NCBI GenBank assembly: GCA_902801165.1
Contig: CADCHI010000026.1
Coordinates: 1 to 37,562 of the forward strand
DNA: 37,562 nucleotides
Origin: an uncultured Eubacteriales bacterium
GTDB lineage: Bacteria > Bacillota > Clostridia > Christensenellales > Aristaeellaceae
Reading direction: 5' to 3'
Below, in pieces: positions 4,998 through 37,562 of the stretch. The notes below the pieces were generated by a model. That model had not been told where the DNA came from and made no database searches. It saw only the letters and a list, made by a program, of their open reading frames with translations. A program made the translations under genes and the position numbers. Position 1 is the first letter of the stretch, and every line of letters starts with the position of its first letter.

Positions 4998-5037
4998 AAG
5001 AATCCCTGCCGGCGAAAACGCGCGGGCAGGGATTCTT
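4998..5037 (+). terminator. Terminator-like hairpin after the radical SAM gene
   Basis: A long hairpin: AAGAATCCCTGCC pairs with GGCAGGGATTCTT around a loop with a GCGAAAACGCGC core. There is no long T run, so it may be a weak or bidirectional terminator. A close copy in the same orientation lies at 5237-5275, on the other side of an inserted element. Confidence 0.55.
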
Positions 5038-5236: not shown

Positions 5237-5275
5237 AAGAATCCCTGCCGGTGAAAACGCGCCAGCAGGGTTTCT
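5237..5275 (-). terminator. Terminator-like hairpin after the DUF1801 gene
   Basis: Read on the minus strand, AAGAAACCCTGC pairs with GCAGGGATTCTT, starting 9 bases after the stop of the gene at 5284-5685. The loop keeps the CGTTTTCACCGG core of the sister hairpin at 4998-5037. It would end the long operon that starts near 10108. Confidence 0.55.
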
Positions 5276-5283
5276 TTGGCTCT

Positions 5284-26181: not shown

Positions 26182-26703
26182 ATGCCGAGGATCGTGATCG
26201 CAGGCACATCGGAAGTCAGCCGCGCACAGCTCTCCCGGCTGCTGGCTTCCTCCGGATATGCGGTGTTCCGTCTCTGCGCCTCGGAGGGCGAGCTGCGGCG
26301 GACGCTGAATGAATGCGAGGACGGCATCGCGCTCATGGCCGGCATCCAGCCGGACGACATCGCCGCTGATTTCGGGGAACGCTTCCAGTTTCTCCTGATC
26401 GGCAGGCCGGAGGCGCTCTCCGCCTGCGAATCGCCCCGGGTATTCAAGCTGGCCTATCCCTGTCCCGGCAGCACGGTGATCGGGGCGGTGGAGATGCTTT
26501 CCCAGCTGCACGCCATGCGCCTGCCCCACAGAAGCGGCGGGGACAAGGCGCTGGTGGAAGACGCCAAGCGCCTGCTGATGGACAGGTACCAAATCGACGA
26601 GCCGGAGGCCCATCGGCGCATGCAGCGCTACGCCATGGCACACAACGTGAAGATGACGGACTATGCCGCGCAGTTGTTACAAGGGGGTTCCAACGATGGT
26701 TGA
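26182..26703 (+). CDS. ANTAR-domain transcription antiterminator
   Basis: A 173-residue protein. Residues 1-120 resemble a receiver domain (RIVIAGTSEVSRAQLSRLLASSGY) but lack the phosphoacceptor Asp: the expected site reads IALMAGIQPDD. It is thus a pseudo-receiver. The C-terminal part is an ANTAR domain of three helices (DKALVEDAKRLLMDRY, DEPEAHRRMQRYAMAH, KMTDYAAQLLQ), which binds paired hairpins in leader RNA and prevents termination. Clostridial glnA genes are often followed by such a gene (nitR), and it is thought to control nitrogen genes. The likely targets here are the terminators before glnA and before amt. AGGAGG lies upstream. Its end overlaps the gltB start by eight bases. Confidence 0.85.
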   Translation: MPRIVIAGTSEVSRAQLSRLLASSGYAVFRLCASEGELRRTLNECEDGIALMAGIQPDDIAADFGERFQFLLIGRPEALSACESPRVFKLAYPCPGSTVIGAVEMLSQLHAMRLPHRSGGDKALVEDAKRLLMDRYQIDEPEAHRRMQRYAMAHNVKMTDYAAQLLQGGSNDG

Positions 26704-29700
26704 CCAGCAATACCCACTCTACCACCCCGAACTGGAGCATGAATCCTGCGGCGTCGGCGCGATCGTCGATCTCAGCGGCCGCGCCACCCACCGCACCGTG
26801 GACCAGGCGCTCACCATCGTGGAACGCCTGGCCCATCGCGCAGGTTCAGACGCCCTGGGCACCACCGGCGACGGCGTGGGCATCATGACCCAGCTGCCCC
26901 ACGAATTCTTCACCGCATGGGCGCGGGAGGAAGGCATATCCCTCGGCAAGCCCGGCGACTACGGCGTCGGGATGTTCTTTTTGCCGGAGGATGAAGTGGG
27001 TGTTTCCAATACCTGCCGCATATTCGACCAGCTGGCGGTATCGGAGGGCATCCCCGTGCTGGGCTGGCGGGATGTCCCCTGCCACCCAGCCCAGCTTGGC
27101 GCGGGCGCACGCAGGACCATGCCCCGCATCCGGCAGTGCTTTTTGAAGCGGCCCACAGGCATCGCTTCGGGATCGGACTTTGACAGAAGGCTGTACGTCC
27201 TGCGCCGGGTGTTTGAAAAGCAGGACACGGACACCTACATCTGTTCGCTGTCCTCCCGCACCATCGTGTACAAGGGCATGATGCTGGTGAGCCAGCTTCG
27301 GTCCTTCTACGATGATCTCCAGGACGTGCGCTATGTGTCGCAGATGGCCATGGTGCACTCCCGCTTCTCCACGAACACCTTCCCCAGCTGGTCCAAGGCC
27401 CACCCCCAGCGGATGCTCCTGCACAACGGCGAGATCAACACCATCCGCGGCAACCACGACCGCATGAAGGCCCGGGAGGAGACCATGCGCTCGGCCATCA
27501 TGGGGGAATCCATGCGTCGCGTGCTGCCCGTGGTGGACCCCGACGGCAGCGATTCCCAAATGCTGGACAACACGCTGGAATTCCTGGCCATGAACGGCTT
27601 TCCGCTGCCGCTGGCGGGCATGGTATTGTTGCCCGAGCCCTGGCAGGGCGAGAAGGACGAGAAGCCCTGGCACGACCTGTACCGCTGCTACGCCACGATG
27701 ATGGAGCCCTGGGACGGCCCTGCCGCCATCCTCTATTCCGACGGCGACAGCGTGTGCGCGTCGCTGGACCGGAACGGACTGCGCCCGCTGCGCTGCGCCT
27801 TGACCGACGACCGGCGGCTGATCCTGTCCTCGGAGGCCGGGGTACTATATGAAGAAAACGCCCATATCCGCCGCCGTTGGAAGCTCAAGGGCGGGGACGT
27901 GCTAATGGCGGACCTGCGCACCGGCGAACTGCTGGAATCGGAAGCGCTGAAGACGTCTTACGCCAAACAGCATCCGTATGGGGAATGGGTGAAACAGATT
28001 GTCAGACTGGACGACCTGCCTGAGGCCCCTGTGAATGACAAGATTGATGATGTCCAAATCCTCTGCAAGGCCTTCGGCTACGCTTACGAGGACGTTCAGG
28101 ACATCATCCTTCCCATGGCTCAAACCGGGCAGGAGCCCATCGTGTCCATGGGCGCGGACGAGCCATTGGCCGCGCTGTCGAAGGCCCATCCGCCGCTGTA
28201 CGATTATTTCAAGCAGCGCTTCGCCCAGGTGACCAACCCGCCCATCGACGCGCTGCGGGAGGCCTGCAAGACGGACTGCTCCATCTATATCGGCGACGAT
28301 GGCAACCTGCTGTCCCACGATGCCGACAACTGCACCGTGCTGGAGCTGCCCTCGCCGGTGCTGACGGAGGCGGAATTGCAGCGCATCCGCAACATTGACC
28401 ATCCCTCCTTCACCGTGCGGGCAGTCTCCCTGCTCTATCCGGTCAATACGCGCCTTCGCCAGGCCATGCGGGACTTCTTCGCGGCCTGCGACGCGGCCTG
28501 CGCGGACGGCGCGAACATCCTCATACTGTCCGACCGGGGCGTGGACGCCGGACACCTGGCCATCCCCTCGCTGCTGGCGGTCTCCGCGCTGGAGCAGCAC
28601 CTGATCCACATCAAGAAGCGCACGAAGGTCTCCGTCATCCTGGAGAGCGGCGAGCCCCGGGACACCCACCAGCTGGCCATGCTGATCGCCTACGGCGCGC
28701 GGGCGGTGAACCCGTACCTGGCCCACGCGGTCATCCGGGAGCATTTGGACGGCGAGGCCATCCAGAAATACAATAAGGCCCTGACCGCGGGCGTCTTGAA
28801 GATCGCCTCCAAGATGGGCGTTTCCACGCTGCAGGCCTATCAGAGCGCCCAGCTCTTCGAGGCCGTGGGGCTGGACGGGCAATTCGTCGATCAGTATTTC
28901 ACCAATACGCCCTGCTCTCTGGGCGGCAGGGGGCTGCACGACGTGGAATCCGACAGCCGGTATCACCACGACCAGGCGTTCCGGAATCCCCTTCATGCGG
29001 GCCTGGCCAGCGTCGGACGCCACAAGCTGCGCACCGGCGAAGGGGCTGAGGAACACCTGTACAGCCCGAGGGTCATCCACCTGCTCCAGCAGGCGGTCTG
29101 GACAAACGACAGGGCAAAGTTCGACGAGTACGCCAAGCTGGTGGAGCAAGACGGCCCGCGCACCATCCGCGCGTCGCTGGATTTCAACTACGGGGTGTGC
29201 AACCCCGTGCCGCTGGACGAGGTGGAGCCTGTCGAGAGGATCGTCAGGCGCTTCAAGACCGGCGCGATGTCCTATGGCTCCATCTCCCAAGAGGCCCACG
29301 AGTGCATGGCGAAGGCGATGAACCACCTGGGCGGCAAGTCCAACAGCGGCGAAGGCGGCGAGCTGCCGGAGCGCTTCGGCACGGAACTCAACTCCGCCAT
29401 CAAGCAGGTGGCCTCCGGGCGCTTCGGCGTGACCCGGGAGTATCTGCTGTCCGCGAGGGAGATTCAGATCAAGATGGCCCAAGGCGCGAAGCCCGGCGAG
29501 GGCGGACACCTGCCCGGGGCAAAGGTGACGGAAAGCGTGGCGAAGACCCGCTGCTCCACCCCCGGCATATCATTGATCTCTCCCCCGCCGCATCACGACA
29601 TCTATTCGATTGAAGACCTCGCCGAATTGATATACGATCTGCAGGTGGCTTGCCATAATCCCGGATTATGCCAAGCCAGTTCAGCGCAAGGCGCTGAACC

Positions 29701-31291
29701 GCGAAACCCAGGGTTTCGCGCCTCATGCGCGAACGAAGGCGCGAAGATCACTGTGAAGCTGGTGTCCTCCACCGGCGTGGGCACCATCGCCAGCGGCGTG
29801 GCCAAGGCCGGGGCGGGCGGCATCCTGATCTCCGGCGGCGAGGGCGGCACCGGCGCGGCCCCCATGTCCAGCGTCCATCACGCGGGGCTTCCCTGGGAGA
29901 TCGGCCTGGCCGAGACCCACCAGGTGCTTTGTCGGAACCGCCTGCGCCAGACCGTGACGCTGGAGACCGACGGCAAGCTGATGTCCGGCCACGACGTGGC
30001 CGTGGCGCTGCTGCTGGGGGCGGAGGAATTCGGCTTCGCCACCGCGCCGCTGATCACCATGGGCTGCCGCATGATGCGCGTGTGCCACCTGGGCACCTGT
30101 CCCTTTGGCGTGGCGACCCAGGACCCCGAGCTGCGCAAGCGGTTCGTCGGCAAGCCGGAATACGTGGAGCGCTTCATGATCTTCGTGGCGCAGCAGTTGC
30201 GGGAGATCATGGCATGGCTCGGCGCTCGGACGGTGAACGAGCTGGTAGGCCGAAGCGACCTTTTGAAGATGAAGGACGACGCCGAAATGGACCTCTCTGC
30301 CCTGATCGGCTTTAGCCGGAATACCCACTTCCAGCCGGAATCGAAATACGATTTCAAGCTGCATGAGCGCATGGACGCGCGGCTGGTACAGGACTACGCC
30401 CCGCGTCCTCGCTGGCGCGGGCCGCGGGAATCCTGCCCTTCGGGCAGCGCCGAGCGAACGGGCGCGTCTTGGGCTCCGCCCGGCGCTTGCGCCTTCAGTC
30501 CGGCTTTGCTGGACGCTATTCACGTTCAACTGACCACCACCGACCGGGCCTTCGGCGCGCTGCTCAGGGGCGAGCGCCACATCCAGGCCCAGGGCTGCGG
30601 CGGCCAGAGCTTCGGCGCGTTCCTTCCGAGGGGCCAGAGCATCGCGCTCTACGGCGTGGCCAACGACTACCTGGGCAAGGGCCTCTCCGGCGGCACACTG
30701 GCCATCTGTCCCCCCGCAGACGCGGTGTGGAACCCAGGGGACACCTTGATCGGCAACGTCGCCCTCTACGGCGCGACCAGCGGCCATGCCTTCATCGCGG
30801 GCATGGCGGGCGAGCGCTTCGCCGTGCGCAATTCCGGCGCGTGGGCCGTCGTAGAGGGCGTGGGCGACCACGGCTGCGAGTACATGACCGGCGGCCGCGT
30901 GGTGGTGCTGGGGCCGGTGGGCGCCAACTTCGGCGCGGGCATGTCCGGCGGCATCGCCTGGGTGCTGGACGAGGAAGGGATGCTGGAACGGCGCGTCAAC
31001 GGCGGCCTGGTGCGGGTACATGAAGTCACCCGCGAGCAGGCCGGGGAGCTGCGTCAACTGCTGGAGATGCACCTGGAGGCCACGGGCTCCGTCAAAGCCG
31101 AGGCAATCCTCGCGGACTTCGAGGCGTGGCTGCCAAGGTTCAAAGCCGTCATATCGGACGAATACCTGAACTATCTGAGCGACCGGCGCAGCCGGACTGA
31201 GGGTGCAAGCGCAGTCGAAGACAAGACGCGCCCAAAACCCGCAGCCTGTTCCAGCGAGGACGCGGGGCGTTTGAAAGGGAGGCGTGATTGA
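26696..31291 (+). CDS. gltB: Glutamate synthase, large subunit
   Basis: A 1531-residue enzyme that moves the glutamine amide to 2-oxoglutarate. The start at 26696 gives a 17-residue propeptide before the nucleophile Cys18 (HESCGVGAI), and GGGGG lies upstream. In order come the class II amidotransferase domain, the central domain, the FMN-binding synthase domain (GEGGELPERFG, GVGTIASGVAKAGA) and the 3Fe-4S motif C1124x5C1130x4C1135 (CRMMRVCHLGTC), then the beta-helix domain with its GGxxxGG turns. Three stretches are foreign to the family: about 986-1013, 1234-1270 and the C-terminal 1497-1531, all encoded by palindromic DNA (separate entries). It works with GltD, whose ATG overlaps its stop by one base. 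Confidence 0.93.
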   Translation: MVDQQYPLYHPELEHESCGVGAIVDLSGRATHRTVDQALTIVERLAHRAGSDALGTTGDGVGIMTQLPHEFFTAWAREEGISLGKPGDYGVGMFFLPEDEVGVSNTCRIFDQLAVSEGIPVLGWRDVPCHPAQLGAGARRTMPRIRQCFLKRPTGIASGSDFDRRLYVLRRVFEKQDTDTYICSLSSRTIVYKGMMLVSQLRSFYDDLQDVRYVSQMAMVHSRFSTNTFPSWSKAHPQRMLLHNGEINTIRGNHDRMKAREETMRSAIMGESMRRVLPVVDPDGSDSQMLDNTLEFLAMNGFPLPLAGMVLLPEPWQGEKDEKPWHDLYRCYATMMEPWDGPAAILYSDGDSVCASLDRNGLRPLRCALTDDRRLILSSEAGVLYEENAHIRRRWKLKGGDVLMADLRTGELLESEALKTSYAKQHPYGEWVKQIVRLDDLPEAPVNDKIDDVQILCKAFGYAYEDVQDIILPMAQTGQEPIVSMGADEPLAALSKAHPPLYDYFKQRFAQVTNPPIDALREACKTDCSIYIGDDGNLLSHDADNCTVLELPSPVLTEAELQRIRNIDHPSFTVRAVSLLYPVNTRLRQAMRDFFAACDAACADGANILILSDRGVDAGHLAIPSLLAVSALEQHLIHIKKRTKVSVILESGEPRDTHQLAMLIAYGARAVNPYLAHAVIREHLDGEAIQKYNKALTAGVLKIASKMGVSTLQAYQSAQLFEAVGLDGQFVDQYFTNTPCSLGGRGLHDVESDSRYHHDQAFRNPLHAGLASVGRHKLRTGEGAEEHLYSPRVIHLLQQAVWTNDRAKFDEYAKLVEQDGPRTIRASLDFNYGVCNPVPLDEVEPVERIVRRFKTGAMSYGSISQEAHECMAKAMNHLGGKSNSGEGGELPERFGTELNSAIKQVASGRFGVTREYLLSAREIQIKMAQGAKPGEGGHLPGAKVTESVAKTRCSTPGISLISPPPHHDIYSIEDLAELIYDLQVACHNPGLCQASSAQGAEPRNPGFRASCANEGAKITVKLVSSTGVGTIASGVAKAGAGGILISGGEGGTGAAPMSSVHHAGLPWEIGLAETHQVLCRNRLRQTVTLETDGKLMSGHDVAVALLLGAEEFGFATAPLITMGCRMMRVCHLGTCPFGVATQDPELRKRFVGKPEYVERFMIFVAQQLREIMAWLGARTVNELVGRSDLLKMKDDAEMDLSALIGFSRNTHFQPESKYDFKLHERMDARLVQDYAPRPRWRGPRESCPSGSAERTGASWAPPGACAFSPALLDAIHVQLTTTDRAFGALLRGERHIQAQGCGGQSFGAFLPRGQSIALYGVANDYLGKGLSGGTLAICPPADAVWNPGDTLIGNVALYGATSGHAFIAGMAGERFAVRNSGAWAVVEGVGDHGCEYMTGGRVVVLGPVGANFGAGMSGGIAWVLDEEGMLERRVNGGLVRVHEVTREQAGELRQLLEMHLEATGSVKAEAILADFEAWLPRFKAVISDEYLNYLSDRRSRTEGASAVEDKTRPKPAACSSEDAGRLKGRRD
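29645..29735. repeat. First palindromic element in frame in gltB
   Basis: Three perfect triloop hairpins in a row: CATAATC CCG GATTATG (29654-29670), GTTCAGCGC AAG GCGCTGAAC (29679-29699) and CGCGAAACC CAG GGTTTCGCG (29700-29720). They encode about 28 residues (CHNPGLCQASSAQGAEPRNP and onward) between LIYDLQVA and GAKITVKLVS, where other GltB proteins run straight through. The frame is kept. Structure and spacing match the element in asnB, on the opposite strand relative to the gene. Confidence 0.7.
30396..30516 (-). repeat. Second palindromic element in frame in gltB
   Basis: About 120 bases encoding a Pro/Arg/Gly/Ser-rich stretch (APRPRWRGPRESCPSGSAER and onward) between DARLVQDY and ALLDAIHVQLTT. 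It includes the hairpins CTGCCC TTC GGGCAG (30433-30447) and GTCCGGC TTT GCTGGAC (30498-30514). Read on the minus strand it aligns with the element in pyrG: both have a GGACTGA...GCAAGCGCC segment, a GCCCGAAGGGCA...GAT.CCCGCGG segment and a CGCGGGGCG end. It also aligns with the gltB tail. Strand is given relative to those copies. Confidence 0.75.
31188..31270 (+). repeat. Third palindromic element, forming the GltB C-terminus
   Basis: The last 35 or so codons of gltB (RRSRTEGASAVEDKTRPKPA and onward) are encoded by a copy of the same family. GCCGGACTGAGGGTGCAAGC matches the reverse strand of the second element, and the end CCAGCGAGGACGCGGGGCG is identical to it. The middle is diverged. The family orientation is opposite to the second gltB element, and the element supplies the stop codon region of the gene. 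Confidence 0.7.
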
Positions 31292-32658
31292 TGGGTAAGC
31301 CTACGGGATTCATGGAGGTCGCCCGCGCGGAGAATCCCTACCGCGACGAGGCGGCGCGCCTTCGCGACTTCGAGGATCTGCACATTCCCCAGCCCATCGA
31401 CGCGCGGCAGGCGCAGGCCTCCCGCTGCATGAACTGCGGCGTGCCCTTCTGCCAGTCGGACTTCGGCTGTCCGCTGCACAACCTGATCCCGGAGTGGAAC
31501 GACCTGCTGTACCGGGGCAGGGAGCGCGAGGCGCTGGAGCGGCTGCTCATGACCGCGCCGTTTCCGGAGTTCACGGGCCGGGTGTGCCCGGCGCTGTGCG
31601 AAAAGGCGTGCAATCTGGAAAATGAAGCATTGACCAACCGGGACAACGAGCTGTACCTGATCGAAACGGGGTTTGAAAAGGGCTGGGTCCAGCCGAGAAT
31701 CCCCCACAGGCGCACGGGCAGGCGCGTGGCCGTGGTCGGCAGCGGTCCCGCCGGACTGGCGGCAGCCGACCTGCTGAACCGGCTGGGCCACGCGGTCACG
31801 GTGATCGAGCGCGCAGACCGCGCCGGGGGCCTTTTGATGTACGGCATCCCCAACATGAAGCTGCCGAAAGCCGTAGTGGAGCGGCGAATCCGGCTGATGG
31901 AGGCCGAGGGCGTGCGGTTTCTGCTGAACGCGGAGGCGGATGCGTCGATCATGGACGAGTACGACGCCGTGGCGCTCTGTGGCGGCGCGAAGAAGCCGCG
32001 GGCGCTGAACGTGGAGGGCGTCTTCGCCGTGGATTATCTGACGGCGGCGACAAAAGCCGTATTGTCCGGGAATGAACCCGCCATTGACGCCAACGGCAGG
32101 CATGTGGTGGTCGTGGGCGGCGGCGACACCGGCAACGACTGCGTAGGCACCGCGCTCCGGCAGGGCTGCGCATCCGTCCTCCAGCTGGAAATGATGCCCG
32201 CGCCGCCGGTTGAGCGCAGCGCCAACAATCCCTGGCCGGAGTGGCCGCGCACGCTGCGCACCGACTATGGGCAAATGGAGGCCATCCACTGGCAGGGCGG
32301 CGACCCGCGCATATACGAGACGACCGTCAAGCGCCTCCTTCCCGGGGCAATCGAAATTGTGAAGCTGAAGGGCTTCGACCCCATCCCCGGCACGGAGCGG
32401 GTCCTGCCCTGCGACCTGCTGCTGATCGCGGCGGGCTTCGTGGGCTGTGAGACGGCCACCGCCGAGCGGTTCGACGTCAAACTCAGTCCCAGGGGCTGTA
32501 TGATGCCCGAGAACGGCAGCCATCACCTGCGGGGCAACCTCTTTTCCGCGGGCGACATGCGCACCGGCCAGTCCCTGGTGGTGCGCGCGCTGGCGGACGG
32601 CCGGGCGGCGGCGGTGGAGATCGATTGGTACCTGAGGGAAATGAATGGCAGATTGTGA
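31291..32658 (+). CDS. gltD: Glutamate synthase, small subunit
   Basis: A 455-residue FAD- and NAD(P)H-binding subunit that passes electrons to GltB. The N-terminal iron-sulfur region is CMNCGVPFCQSDFGCP followed by CPALCEKACN. The FAD motif is VVGSGPAGLAAADLLNRLG, and the NADPH motif is VVGGGDTGNDCVG. The C-terminal GDMRTGQSLVVRALADGR closes the FAD site. It is somewhat short (usually about 480-490): the loop after ETTVKRLL before the LPCDLLLIAAGF strand is trimmed. The ATG overlaps the gltB stop (TGATG), with AAAGGGAGG upstream. Confidence 0.93.
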   Translation: MGKPTGFMEVARAENPYRDEAARLRDFEDLHIPQPIDARQAQASRCMNCGVPFCQSDFGCPLHNLIPEWNDLLYRGREREALERLLMTAPFPEFTGRVCPALCEKACNLENEALTNRDNELYLIETGFEKGWVQPRIPHRRTGRRVAVVGSGPAGLAAADLLNRLGHAVTVIERADRAGGLLMYGIPNMKLPKAVVERRIRLMEAEGVRFLLNAEADASIMDEYDAVALCGGAKKPRALNVEGVFAVDYLTAATKAVLSGNEPAIDANGRHVVVVGGGDTGNDCVGTALRQGCASVLQLEMMPAPPVERSANNPWPEWPRTLRTDYGQMEAIHWQGGDPRIYETTVKRLLPGAIEIVKLKGFDPIPGTERVLPCDLLLIAAGFVGCETATAERFDVKLSPRGCMMPENGSHHLRGNLFSAGDMRTGQSLVVRALADGRAAAVEIDWYLREMNGRL

Positions 32659-32680
32659 TGGTAAAATGTTGTTTGAAGAA

Positions 32681-32893
32681 GAGGGAAAAGGGAATAGGGA
32701 AAAGGGAATAGGAAATGCGGTTGCCACGCATATCCGTAATCCTCTCGGCTCCCCTTTCACGCACTGGTGCTACTGCCCGGAGGGCAAGCGACCGCTGCCC
32801 AGGGGAGCCATGGCTGCCGCGTTGAGTTGCAATGCTTCTTTTCTGCGCGGTAGCCACTGTTCCTTATCCCTTTTCCCTTATCCCTTTTCCCTC
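32681..32893. repeat. Element with 33-bp polypurine/polypyrimidine inverted ends
   Basis: About 213 bases in the gltD-pyrG gap. The left end is GAGGGAAAAGGGAATAGGGA (32681-32713), matched inversely by 32861-32893 with 29 of 33 identities. Inside, GGCTCCCC (32747-32754) pairs with GGGGAGCC (32802-32809), and a TGCCC GGA GGGCA hairpin lies between. It has no coding capacity. A second, truncated copy of its left half lies at 37409 at the window edge. If pyrG shares the gltD transcript, this element lies in its leader. Confidence 0.75.
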
Positions 32894-32941
32894 TACAAAT
32901 TCCAATTTACCAACCATCGAACCAACATAGGAGAATAAACT

Positions 32942-34642
32942 ATGACCAAATACATCTTTGTCACCGGCGGCGTGGTGTCGGGCCTGGGCAAGGGCATCAC
33001 GGCGGCGTCGCTGGGGCGGCTGTTGAAGGCGCGGGGCTTGAAGGTGGCCGCCCAGAAGCTGGACCCCTACATCAACGTGGACCCCGGCACCATGAGCCCC
33101 TACCAGCACGGGGAGGTTTACGTCACCGAGGACGGCGCGGAGACCGACCTGGACCTGGGCCACTACGAGCGCTTCATCGACGAGGACCTGAACCAGTTCT
33201 CCAACCTGACCACGGGAAAGGTCTATTCCAACGTCATCCAGCGGGAGCGCCGGGGCGGGTATCTGGGCAGCACGGTGCAGACCATCCCCCACATCACCGA
33301 TGAGATCAAGGCCTTCATCCATCAGGTGGGAAAGAGGACGGATGCCGACGTGGTCATCACCGAGATCGGCGGCACCATCGGCGACATCGAATCCCAGCCC
33401 TTCATCGAGGCCATCCGCCAGGTCGGGCTGGAGGTGGGCCGGGAGAACGCGCTGTACATCCACGTCACGCTGGTGCCCTACCTGAAGGCCTCCGGCGAAC
33501 ACAAGTCGAAGCCCACCCAGCACTCCGTGAAGGAGCTCCAGGGCATGGGCATCATCCCCAACATCATCGTGCTGCGGGCGGACGAGCCCATCACGGATGA
33601 GAGCATCTTTGCCAAGATCGCCCACTTCTGCAACGTCAAGCCCGACTGCGTCATCGAAAACCGCACGCTGCCGAACCTGTACGAGGCCCCCCTGATGCTG
33701 GAAGCGGCGAACCTGTCCGGCATCGTCTGCCGGGAGCTTCACATCGACGCGCCGGAGCCGGACCTGACGGAATGGCGGGCGCTGGTGGAGCGCATCCACC
33801 ATCAGTCCAGGACCGTGAGGATCGGCCTGGTCGGCAAATACGTGCAGCTGCACGACGCCTATCTGTCCGTTGCGGAGGCTCTGCGCCACGCGGGCTACGC
33901 GCTGGACACGAAGGTTGAGATTGAATGGATCGATTCTGAGACGCTGACAGGGGATAATTATGTGGAAATCCTGTCCGGTGCGTCGAGCGCAGCGGGACTG
34001 AGCCCGCAAGCGCCGCCCGAAGGGCAAGATCCCCGCGGGTCGCAAGCGCGTGCGCGCGGGGCGATAGACGGCATCATCGTCCCCGGCGGCTTTGGGAGCC
34101 GGGGCATCGAGGGCATGATCTTGGCGGCACAGTATGCCCGCGAACATCACGTGCCCTACTTCGGCATCTGCCTGGGCATGCAGATCGCCGTGATCGAATA
34201 CGCGCGGCACGTCGCGGGTCTCGAAAGGGCCAATTCCCACGAATTTGACGAAGCCAGCCCTCACCAGGTCATTCACTACATGCCCGATCAGAATGACGAC
34301 ATCGACAAGGGCGGCACGCTTCGGCTGGGCAGATACCCCTGTATGCTGCAGCCCGGGACGGCCATCGCGGCCTGCTACGGCGCCAGCGAAATCAGCGAGC
34401 GCCACCGCCACCGCTATGAGTTCAACAACGCCTACCGCGACGCGCTGCAGGCCGCCGGCCTCACCCTCTCCGGCCTCTCCCCCGATGGGCGGCTGGTGGA
34501 GACCATCGAGGTCCCCGGCGAGCGCTTCTTCATCGGCGTGCAGTTCCACCCGGAGTTCAAGAGCCGTCCCAACAAACCGCACCCGCTGTTTATGGGGTTT
34601 GTAAATGCAGCCTTGAATCCTGTCAATCACAGGGATGGCTGA
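32942..34642 (+). CDS. pyrG: CTP synthase
   Basis: A 566-residue enzyme that aminates UTP to CTP with ATP and glutamine. The synthetase domain starts [20 protein letters not shown] with the P-loop. [20 protein letters not shown] and [11 protein letters not shown] follow. The class I amidotransferase domain has the PGGFGSRG oxyanion strand, the nucleophile Cys at about 410 ([11 protein letters not shown]) and [11 protein letters not shown] with the catalytic His and Glu. About 30 residues at 345-374 ([20 protein letters not shown] and onward) are extra, placed just before the first strand of the amidotransferase domain and encoded by the gltB-type element. AGGAG lies eight bases before the ATG. 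Confidence 0.95.
33975..34065 (+). repeat. Palindromic element inserted in frame in pyrG
   Basis: About 90 bases not present in usual CTP synthase genes. It holds GCGGG/CCCGC and GCCC GAA GGGC stems and a CCCCGCG...CGCGGGG outer pair. It aligns with the reverse strand of the second gltB element over two blocks (GGGACTGA...GCAAGCGCC and GCCCGAAGGGCA-GAT-CCCGCGG), with a 35-base internal segment missing here. The frame is kept and no stop arises. Confidence 0.75.
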
Positions 34643-34687: not shown

Positions 34688-34855
34688 ATCAGGGCGTGTC
34701 TCTAAAATCGCCGCGTCGCATTTTGGATATCTTTGCCGTCATTTCCGCGTTGCTTTTCCTTGAATTACCGCCGGTAAATCTGCGGAAAAGCGCCTTGAAA
34801 TGCAGCCAAATCCATTCGAAATTGTAACACTTCGGCTATAGAAACACGCCCTGAT
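34688..34855. mobile_element. MITE-like element with 17-bp inverted ends
   Basis: 168 bases bounded by ATCAGGGCGTGTCTCTA on the left and the inverse of ATCAGGGCGTGTTTCTATA on the right. There is no open frame of note. Its interior aligns in part with the tandem elements at 1151 and 1306. It lies in the gap between pyrG (stop 34642) and the polyferredoxin gene (stop 34967). The remaining bases 34856-34966 show nothing I can name. Confidence 0.7.
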
Positions 34856-37328: not shown

Positions 37329-37408
37329 TCAAATCCCCCCAGTTTCACTTGCACCAAGATCAATCGGAATGGGTTGCTGTGAAGGTAACTTGGAATTTGT
37401 CTGAGTCA

Positions 37409-37562
37409 GGGAAAAGGGTATAGGGAAAAGGGAAAAGGAAAAGCAGTTGCCACGCAGAAGCGTAGCCTTCTTGGCTCCCCTCCCAGGGGAGCTGGCTAAA
37501 AGCCAGACCGCCAACGGCTCGAATCGAAGATTCGACGCACGGCACCGCAGGAGCAGACTGAG
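37409..37562. repeat. Second copy of the polypurine-ended element, cut by the window edge
   Basis: Starts GGGAAAAGGGTATAGGGAAA and continues with GTTGCCACGCA, then TTGGCTCCCC...GGGGAGCTGGC. These match the left half of the element at 32681-32893 in order. The right half is beyond the window or diverged: the last 60 bases contain other short palindromes (GCTGGCTAAAAGCCAG, TCGAATCGAAGATTCGA). It lies upstream of the membrane CXXC gene. Confidence 0.65.

Follow-up and report, generated by a model that had tools for sequence, protein, structure and literature searches.

The window analysed here, a stretch of 37,562 nt, is contig C26 of a 3.55 Mb clostridial draft genome (G000) and carries a gltB-gltD-pyrG cluster, identified from open reading frames and Pfam matches, on the plus strand. 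The gltB gene (26663..31291) encodes the large subunit of glutamate synthase (1542 amino acids; GATase_2, Glu_syn_central, Glu_synthase and GXGXG) and contains three inserts. The gltD gene (31291..32658), which encodes the small subunit, is free of inserts in the window, and pyrG (32942..34642), which encodes a CTP synthase of 566 amino acids, contains one. The nearest named relative found for GltB is from an uncultured Clostridia bacterium (L037), with 76% identity in the best segment and 84% over the region aligned with homologues. One GltB insert (29651..29731, plus strand), which the initial annotation had not mentioned, lies in the glutamate synthase domain and is a hairpin array of 81 nt, or 27 amino acids (VACHNPGLCQASSAQGAEPRNPGFRAS), of a family that we call F2. 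The other inserts are made by copies of a different family, F1. Copy A (30397-30517, minus strand) carries an extra TGCCCGAAGGGCA hairpin and, read antisense together with a few flanking bases, forms an in-frame linker insert of 42 amino acids just before the GXGXG domain (30401..30526 on the plus strand). Copy B (31178-31270, plus strand) is read in the sense direction as the C-terminal tail of GltB. Copy C (33979-34063, plus strand) gives the PyrG insert of 84 nt, or 28 amino acids (33980..34063), immediately N-terminal of a 10-residue stretch of the glutaminase domain.

The initial annotation had described copies A, B and C as one palindromic element family that keeps the frame inside or at the end of conserved genes. 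Their kinship is borne out: blastn within the window paired A with B at an E-value of 4e-6 and A with C at 1.5e-5, while the match of B with C was weaker (0.008), and one covariance model matched B at 81.9 bits, A at 50.2 bits (with only its first part aligned) and C at 28.0 bits. All three indeed lie in open frames of GltB and PyrG. Of the boundaries first given, two are corrected: B starts 10 nt earlier, and C spans 33979-34063 and not 33975-34065. The shared GCCCGAAGGGCA is present in both A and C as claimed, but at non-homologous positions. Copy C has it as its inner stem, flanked by AAGCGC and CAAGA; in copy A, the inner stem is GGGCGGAGCCC and GCCCGAAGGGCA forms an additional hairpin further along. 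F1 as a whole is an array of short hairpins and not a single palindrome.

F1 is about 85-125 nt long and has sharp ends (AGCG...GGGGCG) and flanks without a consensus. Its order is stem 1, CTGA, stem 2 enclosing AAGCGCAG, an inner stem and CAAGAC, and then GAA, stem 3 and closing pairs. The fold therefore has three main arms, one of them with an inner stem, and CTGA, AAGCGCAG and CAAGAC are conserved and unpaired. Only 2 outer pairs close the consensus, which lacks a long stem-loop closed by terminal inverted repeats, and terminal inverted repeats of the MITE kind were not found at the ends. At the sites compared, no target site duplication was evident by eye, and a few extra bases flank the element at A and B. 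The covariance model was built from 18 rows of copies from this genus, one of which was entered twice. In an alignment of 113 distinct rows, which was fitted to the model and so leans towards its structure, 95.9% of the cells were paired compared to 81.2 ± 0.4% after shuffling, and 273 two-sided changes were counted compared to 70.8 ± 6.3 after shuffling. As a control, sliding the partners by 1-3 columns reduced pairing to 34-56%.

A sequence search of 28 genomes of the genus with the copy from G043 gave matches in 24 of them. The covariance model gave 146 matches in 26 of the 28 (0-12 per genome; 149 candidates scored per genome), a number that includes the copies from which the model was built. 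The initial annotation had called for a search for further copies in the same genome, and seven are now known there, six found by the model at an E-value of 0.01 and the PyrG copy at 28 bits. Of 150 genomes sampled from the family, 21 had F1 matches, 14 of them from 9 other genera, and F1 was also found, with stricter filters and a stricter E limit, in 3 of 297 sampled genomes of the order, all from the same family. One genome from another genus of the family (G072) contains twenty weaker F1-type matches over many contigs, perhaps a subfamily that multiplied.

The genomic context was determined for 119 model matches in 97 hand-chosen loci, not for all 146 matches of the genus; after 3 duplicates were dropped, 116 copies remained. 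These do not include the PyrG copies from the window and from G009, and they include one copy that partly overlaps a called gene (L247) scored as outside. Genes were called with a home-made caller, trained on the window's own genome and applied to its relatives, whose calls take up 85% of a 400 kb sample from that genome. Placement in genes, the only placement initially described, holds for 23 of the 116 copies, at 12 gene sites, while 93 lie outside called genes. In the window's own genome, four of the seven copies are in genes (GltB twice, PyrG and an ABC ATPase). The in-gene copies sit in proteins with Pfam matches. Besides PyrG, the GltB tail (sense) and the GltB linker (antisense), the sites are the tails of a branched-chain ABC transporter ATPase (also in the window's own genome, G000:C8), of a transketolase N-terminal subunit and of a branched-chain permease; a YgiQ-like radical SAM protein with DUF3362; a GH38 mannosidase; a GH3 enzyme; an FMN-binding/FtsX protein; an endolysin, in which F1 separates the ELLD match from the SH3 match; and an SPP1-type portal protein, in which it lies upstream of the part covered by the match. 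As had been claimed, both orientations are read: 18 in-gene copies are sense and 5 are antisense (the YgiQ-like protein three times, GH38 and the GltB linker). A decay of the structure within genes was not supported: in-gene copies were 94.2% paired and other copies 96.3% (Mann-Whitney p 0.30, not significant), which speaks against the mobile element reading given below. An exact-pattern scan of IMG/VR found four contigs with F1, all of which were also matched by the model (L308 242-335, L309 9785-9879, L310 3418-3622 and L311 1713-1806); L309 and L310 hold more than one copy each. In two of the IMG/VR contigs, F1 lies in frame in the same gene, near the N-terminus of a Phage_portal_3 protein, of which the 18 codons before F1 are, at a guess, the start. 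A blastn search of named phages and plasmids with one F1 copy (L216) gave no match at an E-value of 1e-3.

We consider it likely that F1 is a small non-autonomous structured mobile element, a clostridial counterpart of the Rickettsia palindromic elements (RPE), that is tolerated in proteins as linkers, tails and loops. That it is mobile is suggested by its dispersed and nested copies and by empty sites in related genomes. The unit would be a folded nucleic acid with three main arms, which would insert without an evident target duplication, mostly into intergenic DNA and at times into the apex of other hairpin repeats. Being GC-rich and short, it would leave most frames open, and insertions with a net length that is a multiple of three would persist where conserved proteins have linkers, loops or ends, and there they would be translated as flexible, often near-neutral peptides. 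F2 and a third family of the same genus, F3, would do likewise.

F1 could instead be a functional structured RNA or a regulatory element whose in-gene copies are occasional by-products, and its very strong covariation with conserved unpaired bases, its low copy number and its tandem arrays fit such a role. However, the 93 extragenic copies show no clear orientation bias towards neighbouring genes (34 ++, 23 --, 12 -+, 7 +- and 17 at contig ends), and an Rfam search gave no match at E-values up to 5 (60,872 bases from 9 sources). In addition, copies are nested in other repeats. For 16 of 111 copies, the flanks pair into a stem of at least 7 bp with F1 at its apex, whereas 200 rounds of reshuffled flanks gave 3.1 such copies on average and never more than 7; 14 of these 16 share the stem CCTTCCC(C)/(G)GGGAAGG, and one of the 14 is in a gene. 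We regard a functional RNA as an unlikely explanation, though one of some substance.

The GltB, GltD and PyrG genes were compared in 21 loci from 20 genomes. Besides the window, these are 20 loci retrieved from other genomes, G007 contributing two; in G005, G011 and G042, some of the genes are fragmented or truncated. The PyrG site is filled in 6 genomes of the genus (G000, G009, G015, G020, G021 and G024) and empty in 16 others of the genus as well as in G041 and G043. The F1 copy in the GltB tail is present in G000, G007 (one of two loci), G015 and G043 and in none of the other loci shown. The stop codon adjoins the end of F1 in the last three, while in the window this stop has been lost and the tail continues for six codons. 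Among the loci compared, the F2 site of GltB is filled in G000, G009 and G020, and the linker site of copy A is filled in G000 and empty elsewhere, except that G042 (L184) has a different insert of 57 amino acids. Two 21-nt stretches of the latter resemble the copy A region (86%, E-value 0.002), and the covariance model gives no match to it at an E-value of 1; it may be a decayed F1 copy. The initial annotation had also stated that protein families lack these segments, and in an alignment of 22 GltB homologues (53-84% identity) the residues of all three GltB inserts are absent from every sequence, distant orthologues included: at the linker the homologues have nothing or short unrelated stretches of their own, and at the C-terminus nothing or unrelated tails of their own. 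As judged from these alignments, with empty sites in congeners, 22 homologues without the residues and the same PyrG site in six genomes, the elements of the window are real insertions.

The three close copies could also have arisen by local duplication or gene conversion within the operon rather than by mobility. Three of the seven copies in the window's own genome do lie within 3.7 kb, and F1 also forms clusters in G017:C37, while G019:C7 and G024:C225 hold tandem arrays. Against this, the sites of A, B and C differ in their distribution over the genus, the copies are strongly divergent, and other copies are found in unrelated genes and in viral contigs, which makes local duplication an improbable account. 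The distribution of the carriers speaks against the mobile element that we favour. On a tree of the locus, 7 of whose 26 inner branches are starred, it is patchy, with 5, 4, 3 and 3 changes for PyrG F1, GltB-tail F1, GltB F2 and GltD F3, respectively, so recombination, loss or repeated insertion is needed. In the G007 draft, gltB-gltD-pyrG occurs at two divergent loci (L172 and L173). One of them has two inserts and the other has none, which reflects either mixed strains or a second copy.

The reading frames bear on the fate of the inserts. In the PyrG insert, stretches of 9, 21 and 51 nt have been deleted; each of these lengths is a multiple of three, and there are no stops. With six sequences, its pN/pS was 0.43 compared to 0.22 for the flanks, and with five sequences 0.47 compared to 0.20; for the other inserts, with three sequences each, the values are 0.73 (F2), 0.90 (F3 in GltD) and 0.25 (GltB tail). 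By these values, each from 3 to 6 related sequences, the inserts appear to range from near neutral to constrained. Frame conservation suggests that the inserts are probably translated and add peptide stretches to the enzymes. In an AlphaFold model of GltB residues 844-1542 (mean pLDDT 72.8), the three longest stretches with pLDDT below 50 (997-1021, 1247-1283 and 1513-1542) coincide with the three inserts, although low confidence would also follow from the absence of aligned homologues for these segments. The initial annotation had described the element as open in several frames. The frames are open, but no more than base composition gives: in 83 full-length extragenic copies, 4.25 of 6 frames were open compared to 4.64 in shuffles, so selection for open frames is unsupported. 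The lengths of these 83 copies are evenly spread modulo 3 (29, 27 and 27), so F1 is not built as a coding unit.

If the inserts were removed or skipped at the level of RNA or translation, by IStron-like self-splicing or by bypassing, the enzymes would be unchanged. Translational bypassing is known from the mitochondrial byps. In favour of skipping, F1 is strongly structured, and its fold is about as intact in genes as elsewhere. However, the in-gene insertions are in frame and free of stops, which skipping would not need (only open genes were visible to the search, so out-of-frame cases would be missed), the length changes in PyrG are all multiples of three, copy C of the window is decayed, and the Rfam search gave no intron family. 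We find skipping very doubtful. An assembly or binning artefact, for which the draft state of the assemblies and the position of some copies near contig ends might speak and which the initial annotation had named as a possible refutation, can practically be dismissed because separate assemblies of several species have the same sites with normal divergence.

The mobile element reading, as we favour it, extends beyond F1, and the initial view of a single family does not hold, since F2 and F3 also insert in frame. F2 has matches in 8 of the 28 genomes of the genus and lies in frame in TrpA of G001 as well as in GltB. F3 consists of three hairpins in 84 nt and has matches in at least 16 of the 28 genomes, with at least 25 to 33 matches, many of them partial, in each of three genomes. 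It is in frame in GltD of G001, G007 (one of two loci) and G008, and also in GltB (G001), PurB (G024), PheS (G005) and Lon, just before the AAA match (G008). The in-gene copies of F3 use two frames. When 11 F2 and 20 F3 loci were inspected, all but these in-frame cases were outside called genes. Near residue 456 of GltB, another in-frame hairpin repeat (ACCTCCCTC...GAGGGAGG) of varying length occurs at one linker in five genomes (L168, L169, L171, L178 and L185).

A wider proposal, which we put forward tentatively as a possibility, is that several unrelated folded mobile families keep seeding core enzymes (GltB, GltD, PyrG, PheS, PurB, Lon and TrpA) and phage portal genes with new peptides, and that F1 would move in the form of a folded strand, frequently to the apices of hairpins, with the help of a putative machinery, in an RPE-type process outside the lineages where it was described. 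The search for a mobiliser of F1 covered the Y1/RAYT transposase (PF01797) and gave no candidate, which speaks against the mobile element reading. PF01797 is present in 16 of the 28 genomes, and its numbers show no relation to those of F1 in these draft, incomplete genomes, in which relics could outlive the enzyme: it is absent in G021 (11 F1 matches), G022 and G024 (8 each), while G041 (no F1) has 2 and G042 (one F1) has 9. REP/BIME elements, which are associated with RAYT transposases, are short hairpin repeats found mainly between genes. F1 differs from them in being longer and multi-armed, with frequent in-frame copies and with numbers that do not follow Y1 transposases.

The closest parallel is with RPE. 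According to the excerpted text of three sources (PMC10969869, PMC2229807, PMC2635572), RPE, described by Ogata et al. in 2000 and 2002, are foldable repeats of ~100-150 bp in several families, which occur between genes and in frame in conserved genes, where the added peptide is tolerated. As given in the excerpts of two of these, an RPE-bearing guanylate kinase is translated and active, and in-frame fusions to genes are described for RPE as well as for other small mobile repeats (PMC10969869, PMC2229807). F1 is likewise small, foldable, present between genes and in frame in conserved genes, and absent from orthologues. The RPE-like behaviour that had been suggested at the outset fits F1: copies of this one family occur within genes as well as between them, they keep the frame at 12 gene sites, and they are read in either orientation and in several frames. 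In contrast to RPE, the host of F1 belongs to the Clostridia and not to Rickettsia, most of the examined copies are extragenic, and some are nested in the loops of another hairpin repeat. The fold of F1 is also multi-armed and covarying, and it lacks a terminal inverted repeat comparable to that of 12 bp which the excerpt of PMC2229807 gives for RPE. Because the host and the terminal repeats differ, F1 is not classed as a member of RPE, with which it was compared by description.

According to the excerpt of PMC2229807, Rickettsia is the best-known source of proteins that contain palindromes in frame, and there are examples from enterobacteria and Neisseria. In the same excerpt, Correia/NEMIS, ERIC and YPAL elements are, like F1, small structured repeats with open frames fused in frame to genes, but Correia and ERIC have terminal inverted repeats and target duplications and YPAL has a target duplication, neither of which is evident in F1 (PMC2229807). 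A 2024 review, in the part available, considers protein evolution by a similar MITE-mediated mechanism conceivable in other prokaryotes (PMC10969869). Our literature search, which for the most part did not extend to subscription papers, returned no report of in-frame palindromic elements in Clostridia. By analogy, F1 would work like RPE and similar repeats, outside the lineages described before.

The genus offers at least three families of in-frame elements, and close species differ in whether the sites in a given conserved gene are filled or empty. Whether the peptides are neutral, costly or useful thereby becomes testable. If several families do seed enzymes in this way, their effect on the enzymes could be compared, as the sites vary between close species. 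The covarying fold and the nesting in hairpin loops give a handle on the mode of mobility.

The window contains further repeats. An intergenic inverted repeat of the AGGGAAAAGGGAATAGGG type lies at 32680-32894, and a second copy is found near the window end (37408-37481). Two near-tandem repeats of 78 and 74 nt (1151-1383 and 1230-1473) are 94% and 89% alike, with a weaker copy at 34690-34767. Two 40-nt palindromes (AAGAATCCCTGCC...; 4998-5037 and 5237-5276), which are 90% alike, lie between two genes. An inverted pair (174-229 and 762-817) with CCTTCCCCC/GGGGGAAGG resembles the hairpin that hosts nested F1 copies elsewhere.
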